64,000 nucleotides of DNA, from contig JAPLCP010000079.1 in NCBI GenBank assembly GCA_026392155.1, forward strand, positions 1-64,000, given 5' to 3'. Under the pieces are notes generated by a model. The model worked only from the letters and a program-made list of their open reading frames with translations. It did no database searches and was not told the DNA's origin. Positions 31,503 to 42,621 of this stretch are shown piece by piece. Position numbers and translations under genes: made by a program. Each line of letters opens with the position of its first letter. The first letter of the stretch is position 1. The stretch is from Armatimonadota bacterium. GTDB lineage: Bacteria; Armatimonadota; Armatimonadia; Armatimonadales; Armatimonadaceae.

Positions 31503-32502
31503 ATGCCACAGGTAGACATGCCGCTGGAGCGGCTCCTAGAGTACACGGGGCGCAATCCGCGCCCCGTTGATTTTGATGCGTACTGGGACAACGCCCTCGC
31601 CGAGCTGGACTCCCACGAACCGCAAGTCGAGCTGATCCCCCACTCGCTAAAAACCCATAATGTCGAGTGCTTTGAGCTTTGGTTCACGGGGATTGGTGGC
31701 GCGAGAATCTACGCCAAGTATCTAAGGCCGAAAAAAAGCACCACGCCCCACCCTGCGATTGTGGAGTTTCACGGCTACTCAGGCCACTCAGGCGACTGGA
31801 TCGGCAAGCTACCCTACGTGGCGCAGGGCTACTCCATCGCCTCGCTGGACTGCCGCGGTCAAGGGGGAAAGTCCGAGGATTTGGGCGGCGTCAAGGGCAA
31901 TACGCTCCGGGGCCATATTATCCGTGGCCTCGCCGATAGCCCCGAGAAGCTTCCATATTATCCGTGGCCTCGCCGATAGCCCCGAGAAGCTTTACTACCG
32001 CAACGTCTACCTAGACACCGCGCTACTCGCCCGGATCGTGATGGGCTTCGACGAAGTCGACGCGAGCCGAGTTGGGGCGCTGGGAGGGTCGCAGGGCGGC
32101 GGACTGACACTGGCCTGCGCCTCGCTCACCCCAAGTCTCAAGAAAGCCGCCCCGACGTTCCCGTTTCTCTGTGACTTCAAGCGCGTCTGGGAGATGGACT
32201 TGGCCAAAGGAGCCTACGAGGAGCTGGCCACGTTTTTCCGCAACTTCGACCCGCGCCACGAGCAAGAGGACTTGTGGTGGGAGCGCCTGGGCTATATTGA
32301 CAACCAGCACTTGGCAGCTAGAATTCGCGCCGAGGTGCTGATGCCTGTCGCCCTCATGGACACGATCTCCCCTCCGAGGACCCAGTTCCCCGCTTATAAC
32401 AAGATCACCAGCAAGAAAAACCTCGTCCTCTACCCCGACTTCGGCCACGAGGGCCTGCCGGGCTGCAACGACATTGTTTTTGATTTTATGAGCGATCTTT
32501 AG
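31503..32502 (+). pseudogene. AXE1-type acetyl esterase, frame broken by a 40-bp duplication
   Basis: ATG 31503 reads MPQVDMPLERLLEYTGRNPR, then HGYSGHSGDWIG; the second half, in another frame, has the nucleophile elbow GALGGSQGGGLTLA and the catalytic His in PDFGHEGLPG. The two halves join correctly if one copy of a perfect 40-bp tandem repeat is removed; the result would be 319 residues, the normal length of acetylxylan-esterase/cephalosporin-C-deacetylase family proteins that remove acetyl groups from sugars. As it stands, translation stops at 31979. Next gene is 24 bp away, suggesting an operon. Confidence 0.85.
31913..31992. repeat. Perfect 40-bp tandem duplication
   Basis: 31913-31952 and 31953-31992 are identical. 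The unit length is not a multiple of three, so it shifts the esterase frame. Perfect identity points to a recent event or an assembly fault. Confidence 0.95.
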
Positions 32503-41610: not shown

Positions 41611-41639
41611 TTGACATAATCTTTAGCGTAAGTTATAGT
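41611..41639 (+). promoter_or_regulatory. Near-consensus sigma70 promoter
   Basis: TTGACA (41611-41616), a 17-bp spacer and TATAGT (41634-41639). The spacing is ideal and both boxes are one base or less off consensus. No protein gene begins downstream on this strand; instead there is a short transcript with a terminator. Confidence 0.8.
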
Positions 41640-41645
41640 CTCGTT

Positions 41646-41713
41646 GTGTGATCTCCTTTTCTCTCCACGTGCTGTGGAAGCGGTCAATCGCTTTAGATTG
41701 ACCGCTTTTTTTT
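41646..41713 (+). ncRNA. Candidate small RNA of about 68 nt
   Basis: From a start about 7 bases after the -10 box the transcript holds an unpaired CU-rich tract (ATCTCCTTTTCTCTCC) and ends with a 12-bp perfect stem AAGCGGTCAATC / GATTGACCGCTT, 6-nt loop and run of eight T residues. The tract is complementary to Shine-Dalgarno-like sequence (GGAGA, AAGGAG), as in trans-acting small RNAs that block ribosome binding. No ORF is present. Target genes are unknown. Confidence 0.65.
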
Positions 41714-41721
41714 GCGATTGC

Positions 41722-41745
41722 CCTCCTCCCGATAACGGGAGGAGG
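41722..41745. repeat. C/G hairpin repeat after the small RNA
   Basis: Perfect 10-bp stem CCTCCTCCCG / CGGGAGGAGG with an ATAA loop, between the small RNA terminator and the convergent orphan gene, where it may act as a terminator. Confidence 0.8.
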
Positions 41746-41759
41746 GGAGAAAAAAGGAA

Positions 41760-42621
41760 TTAGATCTCCGCGATGGCGCGGTTCATCAGGCTCCGGCAGA
41801 GCGACTGCGTCCCGGTGTGGGTGAAGTAGTCCGTGTGGGTGTCAATCAGCGCGGCGACGACATCCATCTTGCCCTCTAAACCATCAATGCGGCCTTTCAG
41901 GCTCTCGTAGATGTTCTCGGGGGTGAGGCCACGCTCTTGTACAAAGTTGCCGATCCAGCCAGAGACAGCCCCAAAGGTCTGCCCGATAAAGCCAAGCTGC
42001 CCGAGCGTGTCGCCGCCGGGGATCATGGACTTAAGCGCACTAAGCGTCTGGTTGCTCTCCAGGTGGCTGGCCGAGAAGCCCCGCAGGCTACTGTCCACTT
42101 TATCCAGAAACTCTGGCCCTAGTGGGAGCAGGCCATCGAAGGTCACGAGCGCTGCCATTCGGATCAGTGAGGCGTGCTCGTACTGGCCTAGCGCGGCCAC
42201 AAAGTCGCCAATAGAGTCGCCAGGAAGCCCATTGACATAGGATTTTCACCGTGAGATCCACCGTCTGAAGCGCCTCGTCATTGGGCGTAAGCTTCTCCAA
42301 GAACTTCAGCGCCGAGAAGCGCTCACCGAGCTGGTGGGCGATGGAGACATTGCCCAGCTTGTGGTCGGTGGAGTCTACGGCCTGGTAGATCCACAGCGCT
42401 CTTTGATACCCCTCTGCCGGATCGGCAAAGAGCTGGAGCGTGCGGTCTGAGACCTGCTGCAAGAGCCCTGGATCGCTCTCGCCAGTGTAGGCTGAGAGCA
42501 TGTTCTCAAAGCCGACGATATTGTCCCACTGCCCTGGTGCGACCCAGTCCAGCGCCTTCAGTGCCCCAATCGTGATCCCCGCCGTCGGCAGGCGATCTGC
42601 ATAAACATTAATATCTTCCAT
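41760..42621 (-). pseudogene. Unknown helical protein, split by one frameshift
   Basis: Two ORFs join if one base is removed near 42237: the first reads MEDINVYADRLPTAGITIGA to LQTVDLTVKI, the second continues YVNGLPGDSIGDFVAALGQY to NRAIAEI. Together they give about 286 residues, rich in helices and without a known domain or signal peptide. AAGGAA lies upstream of the ATG. Either the gene is freshly inactivated or the sequence has a one-base error. It is flanked on both sides by C/G hairpins. Confidence 0.7.

Follow-up and report, generated by a model that had tools for sequence, protein, structure and literature searches.

Does the stretch at 41611-41713 of the window analysed here (the whole 64,000-nucleotide piece of contig JAPLCP010000079.1 from an Armatimonadota bacterium, assembly GCA_026392155.1) encode a small RNA, and what would such an RNA do? 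We find that the locus looks like one encoding a genuine small regulatory RNA (sRNA) that has not been catalogued before and that probably shuts off the translation of selected genes. Judged by its homologues, this RNA is a member of a multicopy, phylum-level family. Extracytoplasmic function (ECF) sigma promoters elsewhere in the family and phylum suggest that it is the repressor arm of a stress response. Both the multicopy family and an ancestral promoter that is apparently of ECF rather than sigma-70 type go beyond the preliminary description of this locus.

Anatomy and fold of the predicted RNA

The predicted transcription unit in the window comprises the following features.

41611..41616, + strand: -35 hexamer TTGACA (sigma-70 type), kept in G001, a genome of the same genus, and in most sigma-70-type copies
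41634..41639, + strand: -10 hexamer TATAGT, separated from the -35 hexamer by a 17-bp spacer
41646..41713, + strand: predicted small RNA of 68 nt, its start placed by promoter spacing and the onset of conservation
41646..41663, + strand: unpaired 5' seed GUGUGAUCUCCUUUUCUC, resembling an anti-Shine-Dalgarno (anti-SD) sequence, defined by the A1/A3 alignments, unpaired probability and comparison with the 16S 3' end
41664..41678, + strand: small hairpin UCCAC-GUGCU-GUGGA, 5 bp (helix 1)
41679..41713, + strand: intrinsic terminator, an 11-bp stem plus U-tract (helix 2)

The TTGACA-17-TATAGT promoter proposed earlier is borne out, with 11 of 12 consensus matches, and the model start at 41646 lies 7 nt past the -10 box, as had been described. 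The predicted RNA begins with GUGUGAUCUCC. The terminator also stands, with a stem of 11 bp instead of the 12 bp first given: a 12th pair, A-U, could form only in competition with the small hairpin and would consume one of the eight Ts. Both signals had been said to outclass all others between genes. This holds for the promoter, since a search of the window gave just one further 11/12 site, at 32297, which is within overlapping open reading frames (ORFs) and not in an intergenic gap. It fails for the terminator, which is good but not unique; further strong terminators occur in the window, for example at 52597-52567 with 13 pairs.

The RNA is predicted to fold well while leaving its 5' end open. 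The fold energy of 41646-41713 is -25.7 kcal/mol (z = -6.0), a value equalled by none of 200 dinucleotide shuffles. The mean unpaired probability across 41646-41663 is 0.87, and the 5' tract has a median of 0.88 in the predicted ensemble. The near-invariant core of this tract, GUGAUCUCCUUU, is the most conserved part of the RNA, and the 5' block as a whole is nearly invariant across 30 family copies. It is similar to the 3' end of the 16S rRNA in the window's own genome, GGATCACCTCCTTTCT. Thus, the exposed CU tract reported previously is confirmed, and its anti-SD label is fair because the most conserved tract of the RNA is also the one like the genome's own 16S 3' end. The transcript was further described as lacking an ORF, and this agrees with our analysis. 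The short GTG-initiated 5' frame was rejected as a leader peptide: its length is not conserved, it shows no synonymous drift, and class-B and f9 copies have an early TAG.

Covariation supports both helices. Among 41 aligned members, 96.1% of structural cells are standard pairs, as against 34-49% for slid partners, and two-sided changes occur in 12 of 14 pairs (153 cells vs 46 in shuffles); this alignment was model-fitted and is hence biased towards structure. Helix 1 has 97.7% of its cells paired and two-sided changes in three of five pairs; for helix 2 the values are 95.4% and nine of nine modelled pairs. Two-sided changes are present in 10 of the 14 pairs even when 24 family members are aligned with MAFFT, unfitted to the model. 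Terminator sequence turns over between copies, each having its own terminator with compensatory changes, while the tract stays nearly identical across the family. This combination points to selection for sequence at the 5' end and for fold in the 3' part. Four copies (L004, L020, L040, and L249, three of them in G006) have a mini-hairpin inserted in the terminator loop around GGTTGACTTGTCC.

A multicopy family with two promoter classes

The family is widespread among the relatives of the window's genome. We searched that genome and 60 relatives at the DNA level and found the core in 12/12 genomes of the window's family and in no other of the 61 genomes at the blastn level. A 21-base pattern with up to three mismatches likewise matched all 12 family genomes, with no match to a reversed control pattern. 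In G001 the match is 92% identical over 155 bp, and each family genome contains 1 to 9 copies. Loss of the promoter, tract, or terminator in sister genomes had been named beforehand as grounds for abandoning the prediction; all three are kept.

A 21-base degenerate pattern was also run against 85,462 species, each represented by one genome; outside the phylum, the distribution was covered by this family-specific pattern only. The scan returned 26 stretches, 24 of them with an Armatimonadota/Armatimonadaceae label. The remaining two, L026 (Bacteroidota) and L030 (Gemmatimonadetes), have no promoter-hairpin-terminator anatomy and were rejected.

Three further families of the phylum (labelled f2, f9, and f24) contain more distant members. 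The covariance model R1, which contains no promoter, recovers seven credible members outside the window's family, in f2 and f9 (L229-L233, L235, and L236). A promoter-plus-seed model, R2, adds seven more (L298-L302, L311, and L313), most of which also have a terminator-like hairpin downstream. Against R1, the window RNA scores 82.8 bits (E 2.7e-19 for the genome), a score on one of the model's own training members; model E-values are rough throughout. The window's genome holds a second, diverged sibling (L247, G000:C193:10939-11012, - strand, 34.2 bits) with a GGAAC...CGTA promoter; its seed is altered (GCATGTCCTCCTTTTCACTCTCC), and a fasciclin-like gene lies downstream on the same strand. Matches judged to be chance or unconvincing were L063, L072, L077, L237-L239, L254, L256, L307, L308, L310, L312, L314, and the pattern matches in G161 and G064; L252, antisense to the start region of Hsp20, was also unconvincing.

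Two promoter classes lie close above the RNA start. We scored sites as sigma-70-type at ≥9/12 matches and as ECF-type (GGAAC, 15-17 nt, CGTC) at ≥8/9. By these thresholds, 17 of 44 copies have a sigma-70-type and 18 an ECF-type promoter; the rates in shuffled upstream DNA are 1.5% and 0.16%. All seven outside members found with R1 have GGAAC-N16/17-(C/A)GTC a few bases above the RNA start, and six of the seven found with R2 pass the promoter threshold (all but L313). Within the window's family, copies stand behind either type, the window copy having the sigma-70 type. Because the outside R1 members are uniformly ECF-type while the window's family has both, the ECF-driven form looks ancestral by parsimony, and the window copy looks like a promoter-swapped duplicate.

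Probable mode of action and competing explanations

Like members of the sRNA class, the locus has, at the sequence level, its own conserved promoter and intrinsic terminator and a conserved, accessible single-stranded seed, and it lies away from any conserved target gene. We consider it a good bet that this is a stand-alone, trans-acting sRNA whose 5' seed occludes ribosome-binding sites (RBSs), probably with the help of Hfq. RNA polymerase would start at about 41646 and stop at the terminator near 41713. The unpaired 5' end GUGUGAUCUCCUUUUCUC would then pair with purine-rich RBSs of the type GAGAAAAGGAGAUCAC and deny the ribosome access to selected mRNAs. The terminator hairpin and U-tail would stabilise the RNA and probably form the Hfq site. 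The ECF-driven siblings may give an envelope or general stress response its noncoding repressor arm, with some copies, the window's among them, duplicated onto housekeeping promoters. RBS occlusion is favoured since the 5' block is 16S-like and mostly unpaired, and since Hfq is encoded in the family: Hfq profile matches occur in 12/12 family genomes, above the cut-off in 11. For the larger proposal of a phylum-wide sRNA, ancestrally an ECF-sigma arm, with a 5' mimic of the 16S anti-SD tail and repeated duplication and rewiring to housekeeping promoters in one family, we put the chances at about even.

Candidate targets were sought as complements of the seed 17-mer with up to three mismatches. 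In the window's genome, such sites lie at the starts of FlgE and a SWIM zinc-finger gene, both Pfam-confirmed, and at the starts of genes reading as FlgK and catalase. The SWIM gene is the best target candidate; its RBS is complementary to the seed in both species of the genus, with predicted energies of -37.4 and -39.7 kcal/mol, and within the family the gene was found only in the window's genus. An Hsp20-like gene has complementary sites within another genus; no gene has them across genera. We treat these sites as leads and not as proof: complementarity was how they were picked, and the complement of the seed is similar to SD sequences at large. A common target regulon was rejected: AAGGAGATCAC-ATG sites in 26 genomes precede mixed genes, none of them shared, with a DUF1559-like prepilin recurring within genus g10 only.

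Two side observations concern these sites. The FlgE and FlgK-like genes, both seed-complementary at their starts, lie ~16 kb apart in the window's genome (L079 and L082, G000:C84), and these flagellar sites do not reappear among the G001 matches. In genus g5, the RBS of the gene reading as Hsp20, GGGAAAAGGAG(A/C)ACAC, matches the seed and is conserved in three species (L148, L163, and L155).

Several points weigh against this reading of the locus as a trans-acting sRNA. No target is conserved across genera at 17 nt and up to three mismatches; the candidates, picked by complementarity, vary by genus, and a seed whose complement is like any SD would by itself give part of the RBS enrichment. For the members found with R2 (L298-L302, L311, and L313), the promoters do not count as independent evidence, and nine of the 44 copies fall below both promoter thresholds, several with recognisable variants (L247, L029, L250, and L313). 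Transcription of the RNA is itself inferred from sequence alone.

The lack of a conserved target also bears on the strongest rival, in which the RNA binds mainly something other than mRNA. It could, for example, sequester a pyrimidine-binding protein (a cold-shock protein, S1, or Hfq) like a sponge, or imitate the 16S tail and titrate SD-like sequences in bulk as a decoy. A 5' block that is near-invariant over 30 copies and like the 16S 3' end, yet has no conserved mRNA target found, would fit this role, and multicopy dosage would suit titration. However, the conserved tract exceeds SD complementarity (GUGAU, UCUCUC), a sign that pairing is sequence-specific; to work as an SD decoy, the RNA would have to be about as abundant as rRNA; and the order of promoter, seed, and terminator is that of known base-pairing sRNAs. 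We therefore regard a sponge or decoy as unlikely.

A cis-acting leader or attenuator, in which the terminator ends an aborted 5' untranslated region, is far less probable. A same-strand gene does follow some copies (e.g., L034, L022, and L024), but the downstream gene is convergent in the window and at many copies, neighbours are unrelated between copies, and there is no conserved alternative antiterminator. Copies adjoin many different genes, which argues that the RNA is not the leader of any one of them. Class-B ECF copies in several family genomes have a common folC-like neighbour, and four f9 copies a common translin-like upstream gene, both named from sequence readings. That a promoter and terminator flank mere noise by chance is scarcely credible: the RNA is known here from DNA only, but its conservation across the family, the compensatory changes, and the two classes of promoter stand against such an accident.

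In the window, the locus is flanked by a gene whose ORF reads as type II secretion F-like and by the convergent downstream gene. Just 3' of the sRNA, at 41721-41748, is a palindrome, CCCTCCTCCCG..CGGGAGGAGGG, with about a dozen other sites in the same genome at 88-100% identity, a dispersed repeat resembling repetitive extragenic palindromes or terminators. At 41760-42621 (- strand), two overlapping ORFs of 146 and 173 aa occupy different frames; the matching place in G001 (L002) has a single 294-aa ORF. By this comparison, the split is a frameshift in the present assembly, from a sequencing error or in a decaying gene.

Relation to known small RNAs

In an open literature of 5.4 million papers, we found no paper on small or noncoding regulatory RNA in Armatimonadota (Armatimonadetes). 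If our reading is correct, the phylum gains a family of base-pairing sRNAs that is tightly defined by sequence, and ECF-linked sRNAs exist beyond Proteobacteria and Fusobacteriota. The many natural copies behind two promoter types would also offer material for studying how sRNA paralogs are rewired.

As far as Rfam goes, the RNA is previously undescribed, as had been claimed: in a search of the window, only a tRNA exceeded its gathering score, and the sRNA locus had no match at that level. A Betaproteobacteria toxic sRNA family matched below threshold, was not common to members, and was rejected. Homology to enterobacterial RybB (RF00110) is equally hard to credit. The window copy matches that family end to end (30.7 bits, E 1.1e-4 for 201 bases), with the same layout and with ECF promoters in siblings, but the score is below the 40-bit gathering score, and at E ≤ 0.5 none of 21 other member-bearing loci matches. 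Given that other members lack a match, convergent layout is the better reading of this one, and RybB membership was rejected.

The resemblance to RybB that remains is one of function. As in RybB and MicA, the sigmaE-dependent Hfq sRNAs of enterobacteria, a short RNA lies just below an ECF-type promoter (here in the siblings) and has a single-stranded 5' seed, a small hairpin, and a terminator with a U-tail in a bacterium that encodes Hfq. The RybB and MicA seeds are not known to be related in sequence to the one described here. Unlike those RNAs, the present family is multicopy and includes sigma-70 copies, and the likeness drawn here does not rest on porin targets.

FoxI and FoxJ of Fusobacterium nucleatum are sigmaE-dependent, have a C-rich seed, and both repress fomA (PMC11005410). 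They share with the present family a C-rich seed and a sigmaE/ECF link in a bacterium far from Proteobacteria; FoxJ is ~156 nt long and F. nucleatum is without Hfq (PMC11005410), and this likeness, too, is functional and not drawn from a sequence comparison. LhrC1-5 of Listeria are likewise multicopy siblings with a CU-rich motif (CUCCC...UUUU), which blocks the SD sequence (PMC4132741). In contrast to the three redundant UCCC motifs of LhrC, which lie in loops and a linker of LisRK-dependent RNAs (PMC4132741), the Armatimonadota family has a single 5'-terminal tract behind ECF or sigma-70 promoters.
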